Assembly (NCBI RefSeq): GCF_047495875.1
Contig: NC_092497.1
Location: forward strand, 31,565,375-31,629,374
Length of the DNA: 64,000 bases
Origin: Pithys albifrons albifrons
Lineage: Eukaryota > Chordata > Aves > Passeriformes > Thamnophilidae
Direction: 5' to 3'
Made by a program: the position numbers and the translations under genes. The notes beneath the pieces were generated by a model, which saw nothing but the letters and a program-made list of their open reading frames with translations, had not been told where the DNA came from and did not search any database. Every line of letters starts with the position of its first letter. Position 1 is the first letter of the stretch. Below, one piece after another: positions 1 to 45,700 of this stretch.

Positions 1-3000
1 TAGAACCTATCATATCAACATAGTCATCACTACCCAATCTGCAAATAGAGAGTGTCACTGTCAATTTTGCTTTCTTACATTTCCTTCCTTTCACTTCCTC
101 TGATTTTTAATAATTCCTGTCAAACCACAAACAGTCCAAATTATATTCTTGACATAGAAGCTTTCAAGGAAGAGACAGAATCTCAACTTTCATTTAGTGA
201 CTACAAAACAAGCTGTCCGACTGGACAAATACTATTTCCACTCTTGGCAATATCTACAATAAAGCATGCATTTGAATTTTCACTGAAGCTGCCAAGGGTT
301 TGAGATAAGCTTCTTGTTTCCTGTCAACTGACTCACAGGATTAGCACACCAACAACTGTAGTTGTGTTTAAAGAAGCCAGCAGTTTCACATAAAAAATAA
401 ACTTGCTCACAGAAGATGACAATTGCATATCATCAGCCAACTGAATTAAGAAAAGCATTATACAAATAATTTGAATTTAGTAGATCTTATAGGATGTTTT
501 GATATCATTTTACATTTCTAACATTGACCAAATGGCTGTTGCTAGCAATGTAATATAAATCAGAACTTCAAGGAGGACAGCTTTTTATTCAACAACATTA
601 GCAACTGTCTAAGAAAGGGTTAGCATGAGACAACAGGAAATACGTTCAAGGCAAGTAAGTTCCACAGAAGGATGTTATCTTGGCTTGTCTTCAGAGAAAG
701 CTCAAGAACATAATGCGCTGTTTCACATACATCAGTTTAAAAGTAATTGATTTCTCTGATGAGGCGCAGTATTGTCTAATTAGCATTCTGTTTGAACTTT
801 ATGTGATTAATCACAGCATAACACATTTTAATATAAAATATTTTCTTCACACAGACACACCAGTCCCTAATCATCTGAAAGTCTATTGCTTGTTAGTATT
901 TTGACTTAAAGTCACAATCAGGTTATGAAAGGTTACTAGCTATGAAAAAAGAAAACAGAATAACCAAGATGCTTCCCATTAGAAGCCTCATGACAAGCAT
1001 TCGTTTAAATATCTCATATGACTGTCTCATGCACAGGCCTAATTTAAGACTAACCAAAGTCACTTTCAAAGATTCTTTGGTAACTAGTCAGCATATACCA
1101 AAACAATCTCTGACGAATCTGTAAGATCACAAAAAAATGCAGAGATATACACACAATGTACAGAGTTTCATAGCAAGAGAATCATGCTTTCTACTAGTAT
1201 AGCAGCCTTTTAGTGCTCTTGTAACAGTCTGGGCTGAAAACTGGCTCTTCATGATCACTCACACATCTTCATGGCCAGACAACCTCCTGCCTCCCTTTTA
1301 ATTGTGTTCTCCTTCCTAGTGAAGAGGAAGAGCTCACCATATTCTTCTCCTTTAGCATGACTAGTCAAAGACCAATCTTGATACTCAGCAGTATATTGAT
1401 CCTACCACAGGTCTGCATCAGATTAGATTGGCATGTTGTTTTATTTAAAAAAAAACAACAGATCCCCTAAATGAGAAAAACATATGTAAGTAACACATAT
1501 ATCAATAGCACTCTTAGTTTTTCTAGTTTATTAGAGGTAGCTTTTATATTCCCAGAGTACTAGCTCTGTATTTCAACCCAGTTTGGTCTTACTTGATAAC
1601 TTACATTATAAGACTTTATATCTTTATTTCTTGACAGGAAGTGCAAGACATCTCAACCATGATGCTACAAAAGCAAACAAAAAAGAAACATAACCAAGTA
1701 GCAATTTTAAAGACTACTTATCCACAGTGCCTTTCCATTGATGTTGAAGAAGAAAGGAAAACAAACGAATAGTTACTGTGAAAGGAACTTCCTTCTTCTT
1801 GAAGACATCTTAAACTGCATTTTCACACTTTAGCCTGAAGCTCCTTATCATAGGGTAACTAAGAGTCCTGCAGCTGTCAGCTCACAAAAGAAATATCCTG
1901 TATTCATCTCTAAGTTCATTTACGTCTATACTACTATTAGTCTACATATACCATAGAAATGCCATGTGGGTACAACTGAAGAATACTCAGAAAGCTTTAA
2001 ATACATTCAACCATCTCTTCTGGGAAGATACTGTATCAAGAATACTATTTCAAAACATGATAAAGGCAAGAGAGTAAAAAGGTGAGAGAATGAATCATTA
2101 ATAAGTGCATTCACACAGGGGAAAAGAAATAATTCTTTGGAACAAGACCAGGTCATAAATTACTATGCAAAAAGAAAGACAATCAGCTGATTTGTGATGC
2201 AGAAAGGGGTCCATCCCGCCTACCTTAAACAGCTGCTGCAAAATTTATACTACATTCTCTAGTGCAGAAATCATTTACCCTTTGGTTGCATGATTAAGAG
2301 AGCAAGTGTTCATAAATATCTTATAAGTGAGCACCGTGTATCATATTATTTCTTACATTTTTACAATTACAAGACTTAAATGAGTTGTGCAACCAGCTAC
2401 AAAGTGGAATTACAATGTAAACAACATACACTACTTGCCCATTATTTCAGATCAATTTCTGGTTGTTTTGAAGGAAGACTAGGTTTCAAGTTTCTTGAAA
2501 AAGAGGGGGACTTCACAAACTAGGAGTAAAATTTCTTTCTTAGGCCCACAACAGTAACATTTTAGCAAATTTCTTTATATTAATTTCAAAGAATGTTACA
2601 ACTTGTCTTAAAAATAAAACATTAATAAGCTATATAAAAGTTTGAAATGTATATTATAATCCAATTTTTAAATTTTAATCTATATATTTTTTGGTTTAAC
2701 TGCCTAAAACTGAGTATAGTAATAACTCTAGCAGAATATCCTTCAGAAGCATGAGTTGTGAATAGATTATCTTTATATAAGAACTCTACAGAAATAGAGT
2801 TTCATCTCTATTCTATTAACCTGTAAGATAAATTATGTTTGTTGTGAGTCAGCCAATAAAATATTTCTAACCCAAGAATCCTCTTCCCTGGTACATCACC
2901 ATGAAACAATTTGGATGATGTTACAAGCACAAATTATCCAGTGAGAAAAGTGGTTAATGGCACATATTCTGAATAAGGGAGAAAATATTCAAGGATAAAA

Positions 3001-6000
3001 AAGGGAGCAAGCATTTATTGAAATGACGCAGTTTTCCTAGATAAGCTGGTGACATCACAACACCTTTATCTTAAGAATTAAATATTACTCAGAAACTTAA
3101 AGTTTGTTCCAAATAAATGAATCAAAAGTCAATAGCTTTGCAACTGTGTATCATGCAATGGTATTGAACAAATACTCTGATTTTTAGTATCAAGGCAGGC
3201 TGGATGATTTTTTCACTTTCCTTCTCTATCACAGTGCACACCAGAGATAAGCCTATTACAGGAAAAGAACAAAGTGGGCTGTATTCCTCACTACTCTATA
3301 TCTGCATTACCTGACATAACTTACGTGTTTCCTGTCAAATGGCATCTGAAGAGTTAAAAACATTCTAGAGACTACTATTCTTATTTCAAACAATCCACTT
3401 CTTTATCTGTACTAGTGGATGATATAGCTCCCTAAACCAATTCTTCTTGGAAAGATCACAAATTTTTATTCAAGTTGGTGTTTTGTGTTATTACTCACTA
3501 ATGGCAACACAATAAAAAGAATTATGAGAAACTGACTGTACTAAGAAAAGGGATTCAGACTACTTGAAAGAGAGGCCACATTTTCTGACCCTTTTTCCAC
3601 AGGATCCTACCAAGCTTCTGTAGCAGTCACTTAGCCTGTGCAAGACAATTTATCCCTATTTACCAGGCAGCTGCATAAGCACTGATGGTGGAACGGGGCA
3701 CGTGACTGAAGTGAGTGACTGGTGCAGGCCTGACCACTTGGCAGCAGTGCCAGTTTATGCCAGATTAAGTTGAGAAAACGATGATGAAAATAATAAATTA
3801 CCTTCATTAGACTTACAGACCTTGAGAAATCATCTCTGCAGAGGAAATGAAATGATTACTCTTACATATCCATGCTACAATACCTGAACAGAAAGTTCCA
3901 TTATGTTTATCAGCAACAAAATGGGAAATCATATGTAAGAAATAACAGAAGCTGTTCACCTGCTTTTGTTTCATATTATTTTAACTAATTAAAAATCTTT
4001 TAACAAGGCTTTCTACATGTATACTTTTGGGTTATTCAGCACTGCTCAGTATAAAGGAACTGATTATTTATGTGGAAAAGAACTGGGGAGACTCTTAGTA
4101 CTTTCTGGGGGTTTAGCTAAAGTATCCCAGGACTAAGGCTCCTGTAACTCCTAAATTCCATAGAGGAATCAGCAAAGACAAAAGCAAAGAAAGTTTAAAT
4201 GAACATGTACATACTTATGCATATAAGTCTGACAATAGGAAAGGATAGCCCCTGCTCTTTAACCAACAGTCTCTCATCTCTGTTTAAAACAAAAAAACAA
4301 AGCCAACAAAGCTTGTACTGTTTACACTGCTTTTATTATTTTTCTGAAAACAGGGAATGTAAAAAAACCTATGTGAAAAATGACAGTAAGGTGGTAACTG
4401 CAACCCACAAAAGCCAAGAAACTTAAAGTTAGTCTGACATTCCATCTTTAAATCATGCAACTGTGCTTATCTTTCTTAAAATGACAATGCAAAGTAATGG
4501 CAAATTGTCAGCCCTAACTTTGAATTCCCTGAAGTTTGTTATTTGGTGTTTGTGTCACAACCTTAATGTTATTTAAATATAGTTTTTAGTATCTATTATT
4601 TAAAAAGGTCTACTTTAAGACGGAAAAAGCTTTGATGGAACAAACCTCAAAGTATACGGTAGTGCTGGTATGCCACTTCATTAGAAGTAGTGCATAAAAC
4701 ATACACTGTTGACAAATCTAATTCATTGCAGGTGAGGTAGAAGCTCTTTTAAAGCAACTGGATGGCATCATTAGCTACAGTTCCTTTAATAAATTATTCT
4801 TCTTTTCCCTTTTGAATGACTTTGACACTGTTTCCTTTTCAGACTGAATGTTTTGCCCTGAAATTCAATACCTTCAACATGTTTGGACAAGTTAAACAAG
4901 TAGCTTATTCACTAAAACTGAAATTGTAAGCAGAAACAATCACACTGATTATTTCACCAATATTAATTAATGAGAAAGAAAATTAAACAATAATGTATAA
5001 GACTCTCAGCTTTATCAAATATAAAATTTAAAAATTAAGAGAAGAGAAAATTACATGGTACAACAGAGTAACATTCTGGCAGCATTTTGCATTGCTATTC
5101 AGATTTGATATTGAATTGAATTCTGCAAGAGAGAAGGACAGGCACATCACATAGCTGACAGCTGGCTGGCATATTTAGTTATAAAAGAAAGAGTTGCTAA
5201 CTGTATTACTCAGATTCTTAGGTAAAGATCAAAAATTATACAGGAACTAAAAACTATAGAATGGTCCACAAATAAAGTTAAACTGGTATTTGAAGCATGG
5301 CCCATTAGAGCAGTCTTCCACAGATAAAAAACATAATCAGTCAAAACCTGATCAAATTCCATCTTAGAATATTGTTTGTGAGAACATTTAAATTCTTATC
5401 TTCGGATCAGGAAGAATTAAGTACTGCTGTCTTTAAAACCCAAACCACAGTGCAGGAACTTGGCTGAATCACTGAAAAATAAAGTGAAAAAGGATACTTT
5501 TGAGGACTAAACACATACAAGTTATTATGAAATTCCACTAATCACATATATAACAAAATTCTGAACAACACTGTAAACATAAAAACCAAACTAGAACAAA
5601 ATTTCTTAATCAAGGATTCTTTACGTAATGTAATTTTTCTTTTAGTCTCTTAAAAATTACCTAAATGTACTAACTGGAGAAAAAAAAAAACTAGAAATTT
5701 TTGCATAGAATGCATAATCATACTTCAATATGTCCGTACCCTGTACAAATATTTTCTAATGAATTAGCTGGATTAGCAAAGAATTTTGTCTTGTTCCAGA
5801 AAAGCCCATGAAGAGCAGATTATACCATCTGGGATATTTCTAGACAGACACAGGTACACATACACATTTTTAACTAGATCAAAAGTCTCAGATTAATGCT
5901 TTACTGTCTTCTTGCAAAGACAAAGTCATGTCAATATAACAGGTACTGTGAAAGTTTAAGAGGTGGATGTCTCACTTTGAAAAAATGGCTTGTAAGTAAC

Positions 6001-21700: not shown

Positions 21701-24700
21701 ATTCTCCATCTGACTTAAGCAATGCTCTGTCAGAGGCTCCTTCATCAGAATTGAGGGAGTTGCTTCTTTTGCATCTCGGAGATCGATGTTTCTTTTCCGG
21801 GGTCTTTGCTTCAACTATGTGGACAGCTTTCTTGCCAGCGAATTTCTGTTTTAATTCTTGCAGTCGGGCCTCAGGTTTAGGGGTGGGTTCACCGTGCCAT
21901 TTTTTCATATTCTTCCCTAGTTTACGCAGAACGGTCTACAAGACACTACGCTCACCCTGTGTCTTACTCCTGGGACTTCCAGTTTTCCCTCATGTCGCAT
22001 GAGGTGAACAAGAACGAGAACTAGAACGAGAATGAGAACAAGATCCTTCATTGCGACCTTTAGAACTTTTGCCTTTAGGTTCTTCTTCATACACAGAGCG
22101 TTTAGTATTTCTCTCTACCCCTTCCCCACTGTAGAGGGAAGAATGCCAGAGTTTGGATGGGACCTTCGTAGTTTCCGATCTTCTCCGTATTCATTGACAC
22201 ATTTTGTCCACGTCTATTTTGTCTAAGCTTAGAGGGTATGCGGATATCAGACAAGACATGTAAAGCGTAGGGGCACCTTCCATTACCTTATCCCACATTG
22301 GTCGTGTGCATGCAATCTTCTCTGAGACCATGATGTCATAGTAACCTGGATCAGAGAATATAATCTCTAGCATGGCCAATTCCCACAGATACTGGATGCC
22401 TTCTTCTGCGGTATTCCACTCTTTCGGAGCACTCATCAGATACTCTTTAAATGGGTATCTTGCCTTCACAGCACAGAGGATTCAGATCCAGAGACTGGAT
22501 GCCATCTCCCCCTGTCCTATTTCCTGTTCTGTTTCTCAGTCTCGGGCAAAAGATCCCAATTGTTGTGCTTCATGACCCTCCAGCATATGACTACTAGCCC
22601 CATTGTCCCAGTATCACACCAGCCAGGTGAGGATTCGTTCATCGGGCAACCAACTGTAATCCCTTCATATATCCCAAATCTCCTTTGGGGTCAGTGATCA
22701 CGTAATTTCACTTTCCCTCATTATTTCCCATCCATCTCTCCCACGTACTGTTCTCTCCACTTGTGTTTTTACTCTTCCGTTCTTTCGTGGAACCTCTCTC
22801 ATCTCTTTTTTGACCCTCACGCAAAGATGGGGACTGTTCGCACTGCGAGGACGAGCTTCTATGCTGTTCACTCCAGGGGGATGGGCTCCTACGTCGCCCA
22901 TGCCGTGGAGAGAGACTTCTAACCTCATTCAAGCGGTGGGGAAAGACTCCTAGCTCATCCACCCATGGAAGGGGACTCCTGCGTTGTTTATCAGATCCAA
23001 TGACTGAAGGTAGCACATAGTCCATGGAAGGCCAGAGTAAGGGCCTTCCCCAGTCATCTGTTCTCTCAAATGTAGATTTAGTACGGGGAGGTGGAATCAC
23101 ACCTCCAAGGGAGGGTTGCATTTGGATGGGTAGAAGCAGTTCTTCTCAGGCTGACGGAAACATGTTGACCTCCTCCTTTCCTCTACTGGGAACTGGTGTA
23201 TGTAGTCAGAGCACCAATCATCGAGTGTTATTCTATCCCAGGTCACTTGCACCATCTCCTTCTTTTATCTGGACACCCCTCTGCTCTCTTATGGACGCGT
23301 CCCAGTCCCATTAGATGTGCCCCGTTTCTTGTGACCACTCCTCCCTCTCTGGCAGTTGCTCCCTCCTCTACTGTGACTACTCTTTCTTCTCTTGCAGTCG
23401 CTCCTTCCATTGTCACAGCAGTGTCTTCCTCTCTCGCAGCTACTCCTTCGTCTGCTTCTTCTTTTTCTTCTTATTTTTCTTCTTCTTCTTCATGTTCCAA
23501 TTGCAGGGGTGGCTCTATGGGTTTTGTAGTCTCCTTCATTCTTGCCGTCTTTTTCTTTATGGGGGCAATGGTAATCTTCGATTTTGTGGCTTGAGTTTGA
23601 GTTCCCACAGAGCGAATAGGAGCTGTATTAGCGTCGGCTTGAGTCTGAGCATCAACTGTGGTCGTAGTGGGCTTAGTAGAGATGGCAACTTCCAGCTCTG
23701 CAGCTTGAGTTTGAGTTTCTACAGAGCGGACAGAGCCTGTATTAGCGTCAGCTTGAGTCTGGGCTTCAACTGTGGGCTTAGTAGAGATGGCAACTTCCAG
23801 CTCTGCAGCTTGAGTTTGGGTTTCTACAGAGCGGACAGAGGCTGTGTTAGCTTCAGCTTGAATCTGAGTTTCAACTGTGGTTTTAGCAGGGACAGCGGAG
23901 ATAGCCATGTCCAGATCTGCAGCTTGAGTTTGGGTTTCTACAGAGTGAACAGGGGCTTTGTTGACCTCGGCTTGAGTCTGGGTCTCAGAAACAGCATTGG
24001 CCTTATGCTGTGTTTGGACTCCGCTTTTGGTAGGCTGGATGGGAACTACACGGGTCTCAGACGGCATATTTCCATTTCCTATCCTGTCCTCAACCCTTTG
24101 ACAGTGGTCCATGGCAAATCGATGAGCACTTGCCAGGCCCCAACACAAAGCCGAGAATTGGATCCTCATAGGAAAAGCTTCCTTCTGATAAGTGGCAGGC
24201 CAGCTCATCAGAATCACACACTTGTTCTGATGTGAACTCCCAATTAATGGGAGGTGCCAAACGCCCTAGCACTTTACCAAGATCCAACCAAGCTCCATCC
24301 CACCCAGGGACTGGCCTGTCCGAAGCCCCTTCCAAAGTTCCAGCGAGTCCCCCAGAGGCATGGCCTTTTTTAGATCTAAAAGAGGGGAAGCAACAGAGTG
24401 CCAGCATTCTTCCAATCTTAAACAACAGTTCCATTACCTTCATAAACACTAGGGCTGTCACAATACAATTTAGGTAATAACTGGAACCAATCGTAACAAT
24501 AGGAATCCCTTTTAACAGGCCGTTAAAGTCACATTTCAACAGGCCACCAATGCCACATTGTAACAGGCCTTTAATGTCACCATTGAAGACAGACTCACAT
24601 GGGTTACATTCATCATCCAGACTTGGCCTCTTCACTATGGGACTTCCCAAAACGGGAACAAGTGTTACCAACATCAGTATGTAGAAGAGTAGAATGACTT

Positions 24701-27700: not shown

Positions 27701-30700
27701 ACTCAAATAAAATTATTGAAGCATTAAAGAGCATCATTAGATGTTGAATGTTGTTTGTTCTTGTTATACCTTCAGTACCTTCAGATTGCAAGTAGAATAC
27801 ATTTTCAATCTTGTTTCATAATTGACTTGATTTCTTTTTTTGTACTATTTAATTTCTCTTTTTTATTTTCATTAAGCCTAATACATGCCATAAATCAGGT
27901 ATAGGTCAGCAATAGGTTTTGTTAAGTCTTTGTTAAATATATTTGAAGTAAATAAATACTTCTAAAAATTTCCCTTTTCTACCTCTAATACTAGGAATAA
28001 AGCTTTAAAAAATGTTGAAACATTGCCTCTTAAGGCAGTTAAATGCCTCCCTGACATCCGATCCCGTCAGATCTCGGAAGCTAAGCAGGGTCAGCCCCGG
28101 ATTAGTACTCGGATGGGAGACCTCCTGGGAAATGCCGGGTGCTGTAGGTTCTAGTCCTGAGGACTTCACTGGCACTGTCCAAGCTCGCTCGGCCATGGCA
28201 GATGAACCTCAGGACTTAAACGGTGGGGCCAGTTCTGCGCACGCTGAGCCTCACCTAAAATCCACTGCGCAGGCTGGAAGGGCACACCCATGTGGGGACA
28301 GCCCTTCCCAAATCTTCGTTCGCGAAGCTGAGCCACACACACACAAATAAATACTTCTAAAAATTTCCCTTTTCTACCTCTAATACTAGGAATAAAGCTT
28401 TAAAAAATGTTGAAACATTGCCTCTTAGTACTTAAAATGCATTTTACATAATAAATATAAGCTACTAGTAGTGTGCTTTATATGGTAACTTCTGTTACTT
28501 TAAAAGGGAAACATTTAAAATATTATTAGCTTACTATATTTCTTGGTAGCTGAAGATTAAGTGTGAACCATACTACATAAATAGTTACTTGAAATCTCTT
28601 TATCTGATTTCTTTCTATTGACACAATAAGGAAGGGAGGAGAAAAATAGTTTTAAAACATGAGCACTAAAAATGCCTTTGTCATGGTCCAACACCACTAA
28701 TGATCAGCAAAATGCTGTATGCATTTCTGCTTCTGAACAGATTTGCATTGAAATATAATCCTAGTATTTAGTTTCTTGAATAATGGATTAAAAAACTTAG
28801 CTGTCTTGCAAGCCAAAATTAGTTTTCTGTATTCTTTAAGCCTAATTGTAGTACTTTTCTTATGTGTAACCTATCGCTGCCTTGTAGTGTTTTGTGGAAT
28901 ATTCATTGCTAGCTTTTTCATCTGATACTGGACTTTTATCGGCAGTACAAACAGCCATATTTATGGCTTTTATAAACAGCTCCAATAAACATTTCCAATA
29001 CTAGTAATGAAGTAAAATCAAACCTACAAACTAAATTAACACATTAGAACTACCTGATATATCTCATCATCTCAGTTTGCATCCGCTAGGAAGACTTAAC
29101 TCAGCTAAGTGTTCTATTCTCTATCATTATCCCAAAAATATTTATATCTCTTTTGTTAGCTTTTCTTCCACATTACACAATGTAAAACACAACTTACTGT
29201 GTGTGGACCTGAATTTTTCATTTGTCTCCTCTCAAGGTGTTAATGATTGTACTAGCAGTGCTTCACAAGATAATGCTAATTCCTTATCAGTCAGAATGCA
29301 AGCCTGCCAAGCTTTGTACAGCTCGTTGGTTATTAAGTCTCTTTGCTAATAGCCGTCTCCTGATACTGAAACAAATGTCACCTCAGTTTTGTATCATCCT
29401 TCTTTACCTCTTACAAGTATGCTGAAAGCAAGTTCTCCAATTCCTTCTTGTCTTGAATGTAATGCTAAAGGCCTCACACACTTTCCAAAATGTCTTTATT
29501 TTAGTGTACTTTCAAAATAATGCATCAGTGTTGCTGTTTCCTCTAGTACCAGAATTTTCAAGAGATAAAGCTTTCAATCACAGTGTAAAAAGCTGGACAC
29601 TGGTGCAATCAACCAGATGTGACGCACTGGTAACATGCTTGTACTTGCACAATATACTGTCATCTTCACACAGCTTAAATCCAGGCAGCAGAGAGGTTGT
29701 TCTTTGACTGTCATTAAAAAGGTTTTGATTGTTCTTTAGATGTACTGTTTGCATATAATCAACATTACAAAAGTGTCAGTGCAACCATTATTTCCAATGG
29801 AAACTTTAGTGGAGGTTATAATGGTGCATATATGAATGAAAAAATTGAAGTAAATATGAGTTGCAAACACCAGATATACAAAAACTTAATTAAAAGAAAA
29901 TAGTATAAATAAGCATCTTTAGTCATGTAACAACACGTGCATTAGGAATCAGAAATATTTAGAGAAACTAAATATCTAATGCTGAGGTGGAGTTCATTCA
30001 CTGAGGCTTTTGTTCTGAATTTTTTTCATGTTTTACCAGAGGTCCAAATGTTTTTAGCTTACTACTGGAACATTTTTGGAAGCTATCTTATAGCATTATA
30101 GTAGACTGCAAATCCACAACTGGACTCAAAATCCATGTTAATGTAAAATTTAAACTAATTTTAAAACAATTTGCAGGTTGTTTAGATAATGGAAAAATTT
30201 CTTCCCCAGAAGGGTTGTCAAGCACTGGAATAGGCTGGAGTAATGGAGTCACCATATCTGGAGGGATTTAGAAGATATGTAGATGTGGCAAATCTGGTGC
30301 ATGGTTTGCTGGTGGTCTTGGTGGTGCTGAGTGATTGGTTGGACTCAATGTGTTAGAGTTTTTTCTCAACCTAAACTGGTTCTGGGATTCCATGTCTTGA
30401 GTAACCTTACCCAATGTACATTAAAAAACAGAGGGTTTTGGCAGAGATCATAAATTCTACAATTTGCCGGGTACTAAAGGAACAATAAATTTATGTAACT
30501 CTATAATTCCCAGCAGTCCAATCAGTTATCTTACTACTTCTCTCAGTTGTGACTCGTTATCCCAGTTTCTTTGAATTAAGGAGAGCCTCAGGCTGTGTGG
30601 TGAAATGCAAAAGCCGGATTTCAAAAGAGAAGTTATTGGGCAGAGGGAAGCTATGCTTCAGTTAGCGATATCTCTGCTACTGGTTTGTGCATCAGCTTTG

Positions 30701-33700
30701 GCTTGAACCTGTACTAGAGGAAACATGTAAATAGGAATGTAGGTGAGGCCTTCGTTAGTTCATTATTATCATTAACTGAGATTTTTGGAAGGTTTGAAAG
30801 TACAGACAGTAACAGGGAAGTTGCAGAGCAGATAAAGCATGTCATGAAAGCCATTAGATCTATGTGAATTCTTGGAAAGCCTGCAAAGTTTTGCTGTTAT
30901 GAATGGCAGAGAACAAGCAGGAAGCACTGTGCCACTAAGATTTTCAGAGTTTTGAAATCCATTGGGATTGCTGCTTGTGTAATCTGTAATGTTAGATGCT
31001 TCTCTGACATTCTATATGGGAGTAGGAGAGGTAGGGAGATAAAACAGTTATATAGGTTTTGGTTTTATGATGTATACCCTTAAATTATGTATTTCATGGT
31101 TTTGTACTTTTCTCTGGAGGCAGTTAAATGCCTTCCTGACACCTGATTCCATCTGATCTCGGAAGCTAAGCAGGGTCAGCCTCCGTCAGTACTTGCATGG
31201 GAGTCTTCCTGGGAATACTGGGGGCTGTAGGTTCTAGTCCTGGGGACTTCACTGTCACCATCCAAGCTTTCTCAGCCGTAGCAGATGAACCTTAGGAGTT
31301 AAAGGGTGAGGCCAGTTTCATGCTCACTGTGCCTCACTTGAAAAATCACTGCACAGGCTCAAAGGACACACCTGTGTGGGTAGAGCCCTTCCCAACTCTT
31401 CATTCACGAAGCTGAGTCATACATACATACTTTTCTGTGGCCTTCTTAACTGTTCCATGCTACTCATTATCTTTCTTTCTTCAGCTATATGTTGTGGGAT
31501 GTACTCTGCACTTTTGGAAATTCTAAAACTCTTTTGTATAGCTTTCCAGAATAAGTTACAGACAAATTACCGCATGTGTGAACTGTAACTTGTTTTTTAA
31601 AGGCTAGATGTAGTCTGATCTAAGAAGAGAAGCATATTCTGAAACCTACTTAAAAGCCTTATTCAGGTAGCGGGAGGGCCCTTCTAAAACAAAATTATTT
31701 AGACTGGATGAGACAATAAGTAATTTTTCTTTTAGTTTGTAATCATTCCTGTTACATTGTGGTTTTGGAATTATATTCTCCAATTTAGTACTTCTGCTAA
31801 AATCATGGGCCATTTCCCCTTGCCTCTCACCTGCTGGAGGCACAAAAGGCAAAGATCATGGTCTAGATAAGAGCAATTTACTGGAAACAGCAATGAGATA
31901 AGAAAATGAACAGTAACAGCAACAATATTAATAACAAAAGGCATAAGAAAAAAGGATTCAATATGGAAAGCCTGCCACAATAAACCAGTGGACAGCTCCC
32001 CCTGCCAGATTTTCTTAGAACGCCCATCTCAGAAGCAAGAGTCCCCTTTCCCTGCCCCTGGCAGTGATGTGAGAATAACTTCCAGAATAACCTCCTTGTC
32101 TTAGCCATGCCTTCTCATAACTATTGCAAAAATGAACCCTGTTGCAACCAAGATACATATTAGCAATATTTTACTTAGACATTGCCTGTTGGTTATGTTA
32201 GTTAGTTATGGGGTGATTTTATTTAAGGTATTATTTTATTTACTCTTTTTTACAAAGATATCTCATTTCTAGGTTAAAAGTGCCTTATCCAGAGGCAGCT
32301 GGTATATACTTCAAGGATTAGTGGAAGAGCAATTATTTCCTGATGTAATCACAGAACTTGCTTCAGGTCAGAAGTATCGTGCACCTCCTGTGCAACTTCT
32401 TCATTCTCTTCTAGAATATGTCTTCTTGGTGAGAGCTGAAGACTAAAGTATTTTAAAAATTAAAGCAATAAATGGAAGTAAATGGATCTTTGCTTCTGAC
32501 ATTGTATTTAGTAGTTTTAGTGATGTGTTCGCTCATCTCTATGTGTTCACCAATGTGTTTGTGTTACAAAAAAAATCCCAAAACCCAAAACATTTTAATA
32601 CTTCAAGGTTTGTTTTAATTTGTATTTGTTTGCAACTGTATTAATGTAGTACTCTATTCTGGAAGACCTGGTCACAAATATTTTTTGTCACATTTATACA
32701 CAGCACTATGCTAGTAGGCCACAGGTAGAGACATCAATTGAGAAGGTTTGTTCTAAATAGTGCATTCAGCTGGAATATCTCACTAGAGCAAGTTATTCTT
32801 CCTTTTTTTTTCTTAAGTATGATTTTTTTCTGCTTGTAGTTATGCATTAAATTAAATGTTACTTCAGTCTCTTAGGATTGTAAAGAATAAGGAAAATAAA
32901 TAAACTCTTAGTGATTATGAATATTTAGCTAGTATGGAGCCATTATTATTTTCTCATTTTATTACAGGGAAATACCAATGCAACATTTTTTGCCAAACTT
33001 TGTCACATTTTCTACCTTATTCTCCAACATGATCCTCCCTGGAAGTCCCTGTCTATGTTAAAATATTATTTGGATCTTCTTCAGTGTCCTATCTGTAAGA
33101 AAGGTACATGGTCATTGATAGAGATGCTTGTAAGGTAAGAAAGTTTAATGAGGTGCTGGATGCTATAGTTTTTATGTTACTCCAAACTCAGGAACAAGGG
33201 AGGAGAGTTGGCTTTCTGTTGCCTCAAATTTGCATTTTCAAGAGAACAAGCTATGACTGTCTGGAATTGTAACAGATATGGACATTTCACTTTGTGTTTC
33301 ACAATGCATTGGCTCGCAGGCAGATGGAGATTTTGTGGAAAGAAAAATATGTACATTTTCTTAGCCTTATTCCTTTAAAAAAATCTTTTACTTTTTATGC
33401 TTTCCACAACATGTAATAATCCATCTATTATTGCTGTCATGGTTTGTCTGTGTATAGACACACACACATACATATGCCTGCAGTTACAGAGAAAATAAAA
33501 GTTTTATCTTACTCAACATGAAGTTTCATGTTGTTTTTGATTTTAATCATAACCTCTACCATCTTATTGCGAAGTCTGATTATATCTTATACATCTACAA
33601 ATGTAACACAGCACATAGGAGTTGTTTTGGTAATTAGTCTCTGCTTTATCCTAAGAACTCATTTTTTGTAATTTGCATCAACAGAATTTAGTTCTTCTGT

Positions 33701-36700: not shown

Positions 36701-39700
36701 ATATGTAAGAATTGTAGTTTCAGCACAAAACCCAGATGCCTGTTACTTTCTCACCTTGAACTTATGCACTGTAATGTACAATATCCCTGCAGATGTGAAT
36801 TCTAGCCTTAAAAAGAAGCTTGTTGCCTCATATCCATAGAGTTTTTATGTTACTTCTAAGAGCGTTATTTATATATTGCACTGTACTCTCTTTCCCATTA
36901 CACTTTTTGGGAAAAATAAACCAAAATTCCATATTTTTACAATCCAGCTTGTCATTATCCCTTCTTTCACTGTCAATGTTGTTACACTGCTTTTTCTGTA
37001 TACTCAGAGACTCCTTTTAAAATTCCATTACATAGTTTGAAAGGTCATTCAGAAAGCCAAAAGAGCAGATCCTCCCCAGCTGTGCAGGCAGCACTGTGTT
37101 TTCTCATTCCTTTTTTATCTTTTTAGAGATGCATAAATAAATCCACAGTATTTCCATGTCACTAAATGTAGCATATACAGTGCTAAATTTACCCTTGGTT
37201 TGAGGGTATGAGCCATTGTTACCAGTTTTTGTTTTTAAAAGCTGTTCACTTAAGAGGCAACATCTTGACAAGGACCATTCAGAAACCTAATTAAAAGGAA
37301 TGACTTTTAAGTATTGTTACTATCTCCATGGTCACACAAAGGATGTGGTTTGTAGCACAGTTTAAAGGGGTGACCGTGTTTCCCAGTGTGCTAGCTTGTG
37401 AGAAGAAACAAACATGCCACTTGTGATATACCAAACATACATGCAGTTCTGCAGCAAAAACATCTGTAAATAGAAACAGATGAATATTTTAACTAAATTA
37501 TTTCTTGAGACATATCTAACATAATCTTTTTTAACTGTTGAAAGTGGGAAGTTACTAATTTTTAATTTTATTTATTTTTATTTACTTTTAATTCTCTCTC
37601 TGTGATACAAAGAGATTGCAACAAATAATCCTTAAAGTGCAGGGAAAATAATTGTTTCCTCTCTTCTGGTGCTGATTTGTTGCAAAATTATGTATTATAT
37701 GTGTGTAAGTGTAAACACACCATGTAAAAAGAGCAATCAAAAAAAACTAAGTATGAGGGGCTATAAAGACTGAAGTTACATATATGAGTGCTTTTGCTTT
37801 CTAGTGGTAGATAGAATTTCCAGTAGCATGAAAGTTCCAGAATGAAATTTGTGACAAGAAATTGGATGCCTTTCGTGATCATTCCATTAATCTGTTGGGA
37901 CAACTTGAAGGAATGAAACTGAAACTATTTTTGAAGATAAAAAGGCACTGCTGAAGAACATAGAAGTTTTTGTATCTCTTGAGCTTTTCAAATCAATATT
38001 GAATATAATTTTAATATGAATAAAATTTATTATTCATTATATTATTTAAAGAGGAAATCCAGCTGGAAGCAGTCTGGGAGATCACAATCCTAACCGATTT
38101 TGTTTGGCCACTTCTTAAAAACATTCAGTGATGGAGGTTATGCTACCACCCCACACCATGTTTATTTGTAGTTGTGTTTATAGCTTTTCTTTTGAATAAC
38201 AAGTAACTGTTAACTGTAGGGACAGTATTTACATAGGTTTCTGACAAATTACTTTCTAATCCTTTTATTATACAACTTAGTTATGTCAAGGGTCTCCATT
38301 GCTCATATACATGTCTGTTTGACCTATTGATGCTCAAACTGGTTTTGGTGCTTTTCAGCTCCTGAGGGAGTCCTATTAGACTATTTTAAACCAAGGTTGA
38401 ACATATTTTGTTCTCAAAGAAGTATGAGACAAACATACTCAGTTAAATTTCCCTGTTAACCAAAACAGTCCAATTTCAAGTACTCGTTCTCTTTCACTAC
38501 ATGCCAAATATCAACTGGTGCTCTAGTGTAACAGTAGTGATTCTCTGGTAGAGCCTTAGATATGTTTCTTTTTTGGTCAAATTAATTTTGTGTGTTCCTA
38601 CTATGGTGCATGTATTCTTCCAAGTTGCTATTTCAGTCATAACTAAGTTTTCTGTGGTTCTACACGTGGTCAGAGGAATAACTTCAGAATCATTACATAA
38701 AATACTTCCACATGGCACAGAAAGGTATTGAGTAGACGGAGATGACTTCACTTTGCACAGACTAACTCAGACACTAGAAACGCTGCTTTACGCAACAAGT
38801 ACTGATTAAGTTCTGACATGGGTGAAAATATGCATTGGTCTATGTCACGGTATGTCTGGATAGTATGCTAAAGTAGAATAATAGATCACCATCATCATGG
38901 CTAGCCTTCGCGAACGAAGATTTGGGAAGGGCACTACCCACACTTGCTGAAAGTGTGCTGGTGGCTAAAAAGGCTGGTACGGGATAAGCAGGTCCGGTCA
39001 CAAAAGGCAGAGCGGAATGTCTCTTTAGGGGATATTGGTGAGGAACGGTTCTTTCTGCGTTGTCTTCTCTCCTCAAGACTGACTCTGTGTGCGTTCTCAA
39101 AGGAAGCAGCAGCGTTGTGAATGGTGTGTCTCCATGAATCCCGATTGGAGGCCAGAGTGGACCATTGATGGCAGTCAATATGGCCAAGGCTGAGGTGTTG
39201 TTTCAGGGAGTCCTTGTATCTCTTCTTTGGGGCACCTCTCTTGCGGCAGCTGGTGGCGAGTGCACCATAGAGTACAATCTTCAGGAGGCTGTGATCCTCC
39301 ATCCTGGAGACGTGCTCTGCCCAGCACAGCTGCATTCTCATCAGCATGGCCTCGATACTGCTGACCCCTGCCTGTTCAAGAACAGACACATTGGTCACGT
39401 AATCAGACCAGTGTTCGTTTAGGATTGAACAGAGGCAGCGCTGATGGAAGCATTTGAGAAGCAGCAGGTGGTGACAGTAGATGACCCAGGATTCAGACCC
39501 CTATAAAAGAGTAGACAGGACAATGGCTCTGTAGACGCTGATCTTTGTACTTTTCTTCAGATGTTTATTGGACCAGACTCTTTTATGGAGTTTTCCAAAG
39601 GCTCTGTATGCCTTTGCTAGCCTGTTGTCTATCTCTTTGTTGTTCTTACCGTCTGAGGAAATGATACTTCCCAGATAGGTGAACTGCTGGACTGACTTAA

Positions 39701-42700
39701 GCTCTGATTTGCCTGTGGTAATGTGAGGATGATCGAAAACTTCTTGAGGTGTAGGTTGGTAGAGAACTTCTGTCTTCTTCAGGCTGACTTCCATCCCAAA
39801 AAGCTCAGCAGCCTCTGCAAAGCAGGATGTTAAGCGCTGCAGAGCTGCTTCTGTGTGAGCAACGAGGGCGGCATCATCAGCAAAAAGCAGGTCATGGACA
39901 AGGTGATTTAGGGTCTTGGTGTGGGCCTTCAGTCGCCTTAGGTTAAATAGGCTTCCATTGGTACGATATCAGATGTAGATGCCGTTTTCTTTATCGAGGT
40001 CTGCCATGGCTCTTTGGAGCATCATGCTGAAGAAGATTGTGAATAGAGTTGGTGCAGGAACCCAACCTTGTTTCACACCACTGGTTATTGGAAAGGGCTC
40101 AGAGAGTGCATCGCCATATCTGACTTGTCCACGCTGATCCTCATGTAGCAGAATGATCATTTTGAGGAACTTGGGGGGACATCCTAAATGTTCCAAGATC
40201 TGCCACAGGCCTTTTCTGCTTACTGTGTCGAAAGCTTTGGTGAGGTCAATGAAGGTTACATAGAGACCTTTGTTCTGTTCCCTACACTTCTCTTGCAGTT
40301 GTCTGAGAACAAATACCACGTCTGTGGTGCTCCTATTGGCTCTGAAACCACACTGGCTTTCAGGTAGAAGTTCTGCAATAGGGGGTACTAATCTGTTCAG
40401 AAGTATTCTTGCAAGGATTTTACCAGCAATGGAGAGCAAAGTAATACACCTCGGTAGTTTGAGCAGTCTGATTTTTCTGCTTTCTTCTTGTACAGGGTGA
40501 TAATGATTGCGTCACAGAGATCTGATGGTAGTTCCCCTTGTTCCCAGCTATGCACAACAAGCTCGTGGAATTTGGCATGGAGTGCTTGACCTCCATGCTT
40601 CCAGATTTCGGGTGGAATTCCATCAACCCCAGCTGCCTTGCCAGTTTTCACCTGTTGTATGGCCTTAAGTGTCTCTCCCATAGTAGAGGCTGCATCCAAT
40701 TCATTTTTCACTGGTTGTTTTGCCATGTGCTGAATTGCTGAGCCTTGTACTACATGGTTGGCACTGAAGAGAGTCTGAAAATGTTCAGACCATCGGTTCA
40801 GGATGGAGGTTTTATCTGTGAGAAGCATTTGACCATCTGCACTGAGTAGGGGGCTTTGAACCTGGTGTGTGGGTCCATACACTGCTTTCAGGGCCTCATG
40901 GAATCCTCCTTGATCATCCAAATCTGCGCATAGTTGTGTCTTTTCTGCTAGACTGAGCCACCATTTGTTCTGGATGCCTCAAAGTTTCTGTTGGAGCTTA
41001 CTGCATGCAAGAATAAAAGCGGCTTTTCTTATATGGCAAGATGGCTGAGCAAGGTGTGCTTCGTTTGTAGTTCTCTTCTTCTTCAACAATTCCTGGATCT
41101 CTTGATTGTTTTCATCAAACCAGTCTTTGTTTTTCTTGGAGGAGAACCCTAAGGACTCTTCAGAGGACTGCAGGATGCAATTTTTAATATGTTGCCAAAG
41201 CACTTCAGGAGAGGGATTTATGGGATTATCTTTAAGTCCAGTTTGAAGGTTTACGTGAAAGCTGTCTCTCACTGTGGCTGTTTGAAGATTGCTGGCTTGG
41301 AGCCTCCTCCTTTGAATGCCGCCTCTCTTAGGTTTGGGCTTGAAGTGGAGGTTAAGTTTGCAACGCACAAGGCGATGGTCTGTTTGACGTTATGCACTAG
41401 GCATCACTCGAGTATGATGGCCATCGCTGACATTTCTCTGTTGCACTAAGATATAGTCAGTGAGGTGCCAGTGCTTGGATCGAGGATGCATCCAGGTTGT
41501 CTTCAGGCTGTCTTTCTGTTGAAAGATAGTGTTGGTGATGGTGAGCTGCTGTTCTGCACAAAACTCTAGCAGGAGCCATCTGTTGTCATTGCAGTTTCCA
41601 ATGCCATGCTTGCCCAGGACTCCTTTCCAGGCTTCAGAATTCTTACCTACTCTGGCGTTGAAGTCACCAAGGATTATGATCTTATCATCTGCAGGAACCT
41701 TTTGGGTGAGGCGGCACAGGTCAGTGTAGAATTTGTCTTTTTCCGCTGGGTCAGCTTGGAGTGTTGGGGCCTATACGCTAAAAAGAACATCACGTTGCTT
41801 GTTGTGTAGAGGGAGGCGTAAGGACATAATGCGATCAGAATAACCTGTCTGCAGATTTTCAAGTTTGGAGGCAATGGAGTTTTTAATCATGAAGCCAACT
41901 CCTGAAAGGTGTCTTTCGGTTTTGGGTTTGCCAGACCAGTAGAGTGTGTAGCTGGCACCATTTTCTTTAAGGCTGCCTTTCTCATGAAGATGAACTTCAC
42001 TGAGAGCAGTAATGTCAATGTTGAGCCATGACAGTTTGTGGGCAATTCGAGCAGAACGACGCTCAGGATGTCCACTATCCCCAGTATCAAGCATCGTTCT
42101 GGTGTTCCAACATGCGAGTGTGCATTTGAACACACCTTTGGAGGCAGGTGTATGCCTTTGAAATCTCTTTGTTCCTGTTTGACAGCATTGAAGATGCTGG
42201 TTGGCCGCAGTTATCCAACCGGGTGTGGAGATGAGCTTTGTTCAGGCCACCTTTTCTAGGCCCCTCTCCATGTGGAGCAAGCAGTGCTGTCCCTAGAAAA
42301 GGCTGCTTGGTCATTCAGGCTGCTGCCTCAAGAGACTGTCATCAACAGGGTCAAGTCTCAAATGATGAATATCCTGAACCGCCTGCATGCAGGGTTGTGT
42401 CTGCGGCTTCCAGCTGCTTCCTATCACCTGCCGTTTTCGACCCTCGCCTGTCGCTACAGGGCTTTGTAATGTGGGTGAACCCTTCAAGCCTGCGCAGTGG
42501 ATTTTTTAGGTGAGGCACAGTGTGTGCAGAACTGGCCCCACCCTTTACTCCTGAGGTTCATCTGCCACAGCCTAGCGAGCTTGGACGGTGACAGTGAGTA
42601 CCTCAGGACGTAGGTTTGGTTAGAGTATCCTTCTCTTGGATAGGCTTATAGGGCTAAGTGAGCTCCATCTGCCTGGATCTGGGGTTGGAGTTGTCCTTCT

Positions 42701-45700
42701 CCTAGGAGTGTTGCCAAGGGGCTAGTGAGCCCATCCTATCCATGGACACACTTTGTCTGACCCTTCAGCTGAGACCTGTCTGGCATGGGAGACCCTACTG
42801 GTGGCATAAATCACCACCAGCATAGCTCTCAACCTCATGAGGGCACGCAAGCTTCTCCCCCACAGCAAGGGGGTGTCCCCGGAGAAAAGTATAATAGATA
42901 GAATCCTGTATATTCTCTTGTTGTGTCCTGAAGAAAATACACTTCGGCTTTTTTATTTATACATGACCATTTTGTGCCAATTAAGGGGGGAAAATGGTGA
43001 GGCTAATACCCAAAGATATGTGGGTTTTTTTTTTTTCTGAATTTGGACCTGCTAGTCTCTTAGGAAAGAAGAGTTTCCTCTTGCAAAGTGGCTGCCAATG
43101 TTTTTTCTGCAGGAAACTAACACCTTATACCCTTTTCCTTTTTGGTGTAGACATACATGGTTAGTCAAAAAAGGAGCTTTAATTTCATGATGAAATTATT
43201 AGGAAAAGAGAATCCTGATAAAGTAGGGAGAAGATCCTCGTAATTGTCAAATGTGAGGTTGACTGGAATAAGTCCAGTACTTGAAATCTCACGGCTAAAC
43301 AAAACCTAATTTAAAAAGAAATCACGTAATTGTAAGCTTTGATCCCATTTTGTTTATAGTTTTAGATAGGATGTTTTCAATAACTTCTTTCTCTCTAGTG
43401 CTAAATCTTAATTGGTGTGGCATCAATGACATTTATTTTGTTGACCTGTCTGCAACAGTTAGCTTTTGAGAAGAAAAAGAAAGGCCAGTGAAGGAGTGAC
43501 ATGGCAACAGAGTGGGCTTTTTATCTAAAAATATCATCTTCATCATAGACCAGTTCTCTACTTTATAGATGGTACATTATCAATTTCAATTTGTTATACA
43601 GTACAATATAGATGCTCTTTTTTTTTTTTAGGCTTTCAGGTGTGAAATTGCTGATATACTAAATGCGCTTCTTGGAATTGTAGTGGAGTATTGGATCATC
43701 ACAGGTTTTATTATGGACAGAAATGTGTTTCATCAAGTAGCTGATGATTTGGCACAGTACCTTGCCGTTTCATGTGATGGTAAGTGTTAGCAAGACCTCT
43801 CAAAAGTCTTCTGATCAGATACACTAAGTCCTAACTAAAATCCTTTGTTTACTTCTGTGCTGCTTTAAAGGTAAACCGGCAGAAGAAACGAACCCGACAC
43901 GAAAGAGGTTAAGTCAGAGTTACAATTTAATAAAAATATTACAATAAATGCAATGGCACAAAGAGAACCCACAAAACCCAGAAGTATACCCAGCATCCTG
44001 GGGCACAAACACAATGGGGTTTGTTAGCCCCTGTGCTGAGACCCATGTGGTTCCCCCAAATCCCAAGTAAAAGGAGGTGAAAAACCTGTAGGTGCAGATG
44101 ATGGTTGCTGTCTGGTCAAGAGTGGTGATCTCTTCCTGCTGAGGTTCTGGTCCTCCTCTGGATCCAACAAGTGGTTCCCCAAGTCCCAAAAGCCCCAAGA
44201 TTATATACCCTCAGGTCCAGGTGGGACCACTCAGTACCTCCCCCAGGGCAGGGAATTACACAATGGGTGATCTAACTCTGTGAGTCATGGGATATTTTTG
44301 GAATCGTTGATGGCCCATTAGCAGACATGACCCCTCAGGCTGGGTATGAAGGTGCCAATGACTTCCTGGAGGGGAGTTACCACAGCTCTTATCTCACAGG
44401 CTTCTTTAACACCCAACTTACATCCTGAGGGGTCAGGTGTGCCCTGGGCAGCTGCTGCCAATGGTCCATTGTTAACAGTTCATGCGAAATTAAGTAGAGG
44501 GTGTAGAATACACAGCTTTGGTCACACCCACACAGTGATAAACTGATTCCAGCTTGCTGAAGTGGAACAACTTTCAAGTTACTTTTTACCTCCTGTTGCA
44601 GCTGTGCACTCTTAACGTTGTGTGTACATATGCAGGAAAGTTTTCCACTGTGTGTGTGTCTGTCAGTGTTAAGCAAAGGCTACAGAGAACAGGCTTTTGC
44701 ATTAAAATCACTCTAAATAAATCTCAGTAAGTATAAATGTGAATTATTTTTCTCCTTCATTAAATATACTGGTTAAAGAGAAATGTCATGGTTATCATTT
44801 ACCATGTAATGTTGGTAGAGGTATCTGTACTTTTAACAACTAGGGGTTGTGGAACTCAAAAAGCAAAAAAAATAATCTCAAGAGAAACACTGAATTTTAA
44901 TTTCATTTCCAAACTTAATTCCTTCCAAAGCTTCCCCCCCGTTCTTTCTACTACCCTCCATGTAACAAATATGGATATTCTAGTTTCAGTCATTATTTTC
45001 TGTAGTAACAGGTGTGTATGTAGGCTTCGTTTAAAGTGTATCTGCCTTCTACCTGGGCCCTTCAGAAATATGCTGAAAAAAATTAAACTAAAATCTTAAT
45101 CTCTGTACAAATATTTCCACTCCAGTCTTACAGAAAGCAAATTATCAGAACTGTTATAGCCTGCCTTGCATTTTAGAAGGCCAAAGCACTTGGAACTTTG
45201 TAGTATTTAAATTAATGGTGCTTCTAGTTTGTACGGCTATTGCCACCTCTCCAACATATTTTCTAGTTGTCCTATAATAGGGAGAATTTTAGTTATATAT
45301 TTCTGTAAGACTTCCTTACTTTCTTATACACAAATGGAAAATAAAAACAGCATTCACTGTCTGCTTATAAAGAATAAAGATTCTTTGACCTGTGCCACCT
45401 GGCACAATCCAAAGCAAAATTGTTGCAGAGTTCTTCTAAATTCAGTTACTCTTACAGTAGAGAACATCTGTACTCTTAAAACTTGTGTTTTTATTGAGTC
45501 TTCAGATCAGTTAATTTATGAGCACTTCTTAGAAGACTAAAATATTCCCTCCATACAGTAAAGAATTCCTTCCTCATGGCACATATTCGTCTCCACCTGA
45601 TTTAGTTATTGTTTTGACAAAATTACTATGCCAGGATCAAAATGCAAATTCATATCAGTCATTCTACCTCCTTTTCCACAAAAAGAAAGGTAGGCCAGAC

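Follow-up and report, generated by a model that had tools for sequence, protein, structure and literature searches.

All SINEs mobilised by AviRTE, a LINE of birds, have been described as having a bipartite tail taken from the 5' and 3' UTRs of the LINE behind heads of differing origin, and one of them, GymnSINE of the antbirds, has a head derived from 5S rRNA (Suh et al. 2016, PMC4844689). Non-autonomous RTE elements of bipartite structure are common, some of the SINEs derived from them carry 5S sequence (Kojima 2020, PMC7245038), and RTE chimeras with tRNA or 5S rRNA have been noted as well (PMC13174262). The architecture of the SINE found in the window (the whole 64,000-nt stretch of Pithys albifrons albifrons DNA analysed) is therefore already known and, because it has been in print since 2016, its design is no surprise. 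An earlier sequence-only reading of the window had presented a body taken from the LINE 5' region as unusual; the novelty that this implied does not hold, bipartite AviRTE SINEs being described in PMC4844689 and PMC7245038. The window SINE illustrates cleanly how SINEs arise from RTE-type LINEs, and since a single genome has the LINE, headless deleted derivatives of it and the finished SINE, the steps can be compared side by side.

The closest described element, GymnSINE (known by description only), shares with the window SINE the 5S-rRNA head and the bipartite tail from the AviRTE 5' and 3' UTRs (PMC4844689), one difference being the long duplication around the window copy alone. ManaSINE1, ManaSINE2, BuceSINE and MeloSINE have the same bipartite tail and partner LINE but heads from tRNA-Glu, GC-rich sequence or 28S rRNA (PMC4844689, figure legend). 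The bipartite RTE-derived SINEs of PMC7245038 likewise consist of an internally deleted RTE with both ends and a non-coding RNA head, 5S included, and belong to other RTE lineages and hosts. With the SINE3 class (Kapitonov and Jurka 2003, cited in PMC7245038) only the 5S-derived head is held in common, as that class is defined by head type alone and its bodies and partner LINEs vary. HaSE3 of Helicoverpa (PMC3272025) combines a 5S head with an RTE-like 3' tail, and a template switch was proposed for it; its body, however, is common to a tRNA SINE and is not described, in the accessible part of that paper, as a LINE 5' region. PittSINE (PMC5729268) is also a bird SINE for which the authors proposed head exchange by template switching, but it has a tRNA head and a CR1-derived tail. 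The L1/5S chimeras of PMC13174262 are typically antisense and truncated, in which the head of the window SINE differs from them.

The SINE occupies positions 28033-28344 of the window and consists of a 5S rRNA head, a body from the LINE 5' region and a tail from the LINE 3' end. This composition had been proposed from the sequence alone, with segment limits that proved right to within a few bases. The element and its immediate flanks contain the following features:

27950..28032, plus strand: left copy of an 83-bp target-site duplication, 100% identical to the right copy
28033..28150, plus strand: 5S rRNA-derived head, near-complete, extending to the 3' end of the 5S model
28154..28291, plus strand: body from the LINE 5' region, equivalent to LINE 42609-42471 (LINE nt 278-416)
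28292..28335, plus strand: tail from the LINE 3' end, equivalent to LINE 38941-38898
28336..28344, plus strand: terminal (CA)n repeat, read from the sequence, with CA-type ends also in the other copies examined
28345..28427, plus strand: right copy of the 83-bp target-site duplication, 100% identical to the left copy

The Rfam model RF00001 matched 28028-28150 along its entire length (model 1-120 of 120; 61 bits, E 2.4e-10, gathering score 38). This match begins five bases before the SINE head, in the duplicated left flank. The body is 138 nt long and its LINE counterpart lies on the minus strand; positions 122-259 of the SINE consensus aligned to LINE 42609-42471 at 87% over 140 columns (E 3e-43), and positions 260-303 to LINE 38941-38898 at 86% over 44 (E 1.4e-9). 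Body and tail are joined directly, with zero filler, and a short hairpin closed by a UUCG loop is predicted in the tail. Within 28033-28344 there is no stretch of four consecutive T. Boxes A, IE and C of the pol III promoter presumably lie inside the head (28033..28150).

The window SINE has both the bipartite tail (a LINE 5' UTR fragment plus the 3' UTR) that marks SINEs mobilised by AviRTE and the 5S-rRNA-derived head that marks GymnSINE. In our reading it was mobilised by an AviRTE-like LINE and, with its 5S head and bipartite tail, is probably GymnSINE itself or closely related to it (probability roughly 0.85), because of its three-part structure, the LINE ends and insertion site that it shares with the LINE, the presence of headless deleted LINEs and the many similar copies.

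The last point follows from a search of the window's own genome (1.144 Gb, 53 contigs), in which the SINE belongs to a multicopy family. There were 3,472 first-look candidates, a figure that is not a copy count, and the best 40 of them, i.e. those nearest the focal copy, all matched it at 97% or more. A consensus was built from these 40 by projection on the focal copy; the focal SINE departs from it by three changes (1.0%) and the remaining 39 copies by 1.0-2.6%. The window holds another member of the family:

31118..31427, plus strand: older member of the SINE family, the second in the window, 82% identical to the family consensus

The 5S model still recognised this older copy with 47.5 bits, and by eye the 12-nt segments on either side of it (31106-31117 and 31429-31440) form a duplication with a single mismatched base.

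The partner LINE lies in the same window:

38898..42886, minus strand: AviRTE-like LINE, both ends present and reading frames broken, recognised by Pfam domains and primer sites

It is a contiguous element of 3,989 nt flanked by a 9-nt duplication, ATAATAGAT (by eye). One piece of its reading frame matched RVT_1 at 2.6e-24, and other pieces matched RVT_1 (4.7e-6) and Exo_endo_phos_2 (5.4e-4), both below Pfam's cut-off; the combination of endonuclease and reverse transcriptase domains that defines the RTE clade is present, with the endonuclease match below that cut-off. Sites for nine of the ten published AviRTE primers were found in it with 0-5 mismatches, the best being 3R (0/21), int-R (1/19), 4F (2/22), 4R (2/19), int-F (3/21) and 2F (3/20), followed by the less well matching 1R (4/22), 3F (4/21) and 2R (5/22); the tenth, 1F, had 5/18 mismatches at the LINE, no better than chance matches elsewhere in the window. 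The 3' UTR measures 36 nt (stop at 38934 to 38898), against ~40 for AviRTE in print (PMC4844689). Judged by these primer sites, the domains and the short 3' UTR, the partner LINE is AviRTE-like.

An independent 5S-headed AviRTE SINE, born outside the antbirds, would be alike in design and different in family. Six of the ten primers had median mismatches of 2 to 4 on other LINE copies versus 5 to 9 in shuffled sequence, and by these medians the copies are ~10% or more off the published primers, which leaves some room for such a separate origin, as do the several lineage-specific SINE births with different heads reported by Suh et al. (PMC4844689). The antbird SINE is, however, the sole 5S-headed AviRTE SINE met in the accessible part of that paper, and the name GymnSINE is confined to a single source in the literature searched. 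We consider a birth outside the antbirds unlikely.

A search of the window's own genome with the LINE 5' region gave 3,704 candidates, and the best 40 were scored. We set the 5' end at 42886 because 31 of these 40 start at the equivalent base; eight others start 3 to 13 nt further out, and the fortieth is the window's own copy. The 40 are 5'-complete by choice, since the best matches were taken. Not one of them has 5S sequence upstream (0/40 of the best 40 of 3,704, checked over 1.5 kb in 30 copies and 0.6 kb in 10), as the sequence-only reading had held for the LINE in the window, and the segment shared with the SINE body lies, as ordinary sequence, within an uninterrupted LINE of 3,989 nt, a position that rules out a simple-repeat origin. 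Thus neither of the two findings named beforehand as fatal to a LINE-derived body, a 5S-headed LINE or a simple-repeat middle segment, was made. The expected LINE 3' end was present in 18 of the 20 copies that were followed; in L086 and L090 it was not at the expected distance.

SINE and LINE also share their insertion site. Exact target duplications of at least 8 nt flank 33 of the 40 SINE copies, and the site counts exclude the seven copies without them. T occupies position -1 in 28/33 and A position 0 in 26/33, with T at -13 in 23/33 and at -12 in 22/33; at the LINE sites T is found at -1 in 18/18 and A at 0 in 15/18 (counted by eye). The common T|A site resembles the Tn-TA insertion signature reported for Bov-B LINEs, related SINEs and RTE elements (PMC13295347); by the definition in the accessible part of that paper the SINE copies show a Tn-TA-like signature, the LINE rows having been scored for T|A only. 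Despite their common 3' UTR and insertion site, the two elements differ at their termini, which are (CA)n in the SINE copies and mostly (TGA)n in the LINE copies; this difference counts against our reading.

It is mainly by an unusually long target duplication that the focal SINE copy stands out. The duplications of 32 SINE copies measure 8-15 nt, as do those of all 18 LINE copies with both ends (18/18), so that a perfect duplication of 83 bp in the assembly sequence compares with 8-15 nt in 50 other measured copies (32 SINE, 18 LINE). It seems to reflect a second-strand cut of exceptional width, and no mention of the duplication was met in the literature searched, a scope outside which most subscription papers fall. 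A pre-existing tandem repeat is disfavoured by reasoning, because an element inserted into such a pair should be bordered on its right by a short duplication of its own and because the 83-bp repeat starts, like the other copies, at a T|A site (the left copy is preceded by ...GAAGT|A).

Internally deleted LINE copies without a 5S head had been predicted as intermediates, and this part of the prediction stood: at least 5 of the best 40 of 3,704 candidates (L058, L060, L099, L103 and L104) retain the two ends of the LINE and carry no 5S head. Five is a lower bound, because a deletion escapes notice unless the 3' end comes to lie within ~1.5 kb. Not counted as internal deletions were L067 (LINE match only as far as nt 861, and the locus lacks a 3' end), L065 (3'-end match upstream on the other strand) and L086 and L090 (3' end away from the expected distance). 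Exact duplications of 8-14 nt flank four of the five and an imperfect one, judged by eye, the fifth; a deletion after insertion could leave such duplications too. The five junctions lie at LINE nt 932/3732, 938/3870, 781/3815, 598/3378 and 519/3700, and the junction of the SINE, 416/3946, was found in none of these five copies (0/5). An intermediate of the right kind exists in the genome, and the direct ancestor of the SINE is not among the five.

Two minor points concern these copies. The 5' breaks of L058 and L060 fall within 6 nt of each other (LINE nt 932 and 938) and are joined to different 3' sites. In L103, positions ~1380-1780 of the locus, in LINE sense, form an array of ~37-nt repeats that includes LINE nt 3568-3596.

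An internally deleted LINE that acquired a 5S promoter is the best-supported origin of the family; template switching, the means that the sequence-only reading had suggested, would be the inferred part of it, and that reading is overall partly supported. The family would have been born by loss of LINE nt 417-3945, and the reverse transcriptase, with ~275 nt of the LINE 5' region still to be copied, would have switched to the 3' terminus of a 5S rRNA. The 5S head, judging from its sequence, may then drive pol III transcription, and the AviRTE protein would recognise the 3' end and reverse-transcribe the RNA at a nicked T|A site. The 5S part ends at its own 3' end beside the body, which fits an end-to-end jump; RNA ligation would look alike. 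For L1 chimeras both ligation and template switching are discussed, and both yield same-orientation fusions (PMC13174262). Together with the absence of microhomology at the body/tail junction this lends some weight to joining of the 5S head by RNA ligation or DNA recombination, for which we met no positive evidence in the window's genome. The L103 junction, by contrast, has an imperfect 13-nt overlap as a homology-guided jump would leave, and DNA repair could leave the same. We regard ligation or recombination as a minority possibility and the reverse-transcriptase jump as the preferred route.

There is no support for splicing as the source of the internal deletion, because the removed piece, which in the family consensus starts with ATTGC and ends with AAGC, lacks GT...AG. 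A search of a plasmid collection gave no match.

The position of the body/tail junction raises another question, for which three further features are needed:

28276..28308, plus strand: predicted hairpin across the body/tail junction, from folding
38926..38941, minus strand: LINE 3' arm GTGGGTAGTGCCCTTC, complementary to the LINE 5' arm
42471..42485, minus strand: LINE 5' arm GAAGGGTTCACCCAC, ending at the end of the SINE body

The family consensus reads ACCCAC|GTGGGG at the junction, which forms, with no microhomology, the apex between two complementary LINE segments, one from the 5' and one from the 3' region; in the literature searched on other aspects of the SINE no mention of this complementarity was met. 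The AviRTE protein might need an RNA stem in which the LINE 5' segment GAAGGGTTCACCCAC pairs with the 3' segment GTGGGTAGTGCCCTTC, and the bipartite tail might be retained for that stem, the SINE keeping both arms and dropping the loop. Perfect end-anchored arms of at least 6 occur in only 31 of 83,984 5'/3' position pairs, which puts the junction at a rare palindrome centre, and the duplex of the window-copy arms was equalled by 9 of 20,000 random pairs; keeping the 3' side constant gave 2 such pairs in 3,893, and keeping the 5' side constant 0 in 3,855. The lower stem has 8 pairs in the SINE versus 7, with wobble, in the LINE; the upper stem, however, has fewer pairs in the SINE than in the LINE. 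The hairpin energy of the joined family-consensus arms was reached by as many as 300 of 20,000 random pairs (11/457 and 7/174 with one side fixed), and the SINE fold at 28233-28335 had a z of -1.69, with 15 of 200 shuffles as good. The older SINE copy at 31118 lacks this fold, the five other internal deletions join elsewhere (four of these with exact duplications), and the coincidence of the arms was spotted after the fact. A functional stem is on this modelling a weakly supported lead, and we think it improbable that the bipartite tail is retained for one. Slightly less probable is the stricter form, that AviRTE recognises its RNA through a stem of its 5' and 3' regions, that every mobilised SINE must keep both arms and that the birth junction is the stem apex. 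If true, the stem would explain the repeated origin of bipartite tails in birds, and a junction at complementary LINE ends offers a testable reason for the 5' fragment in AviRTE SINEs.

Elsewhere in the window, 23568-23987 consists of two direct copies of ~200 nt that are 75% alike and start 219 nt apart.
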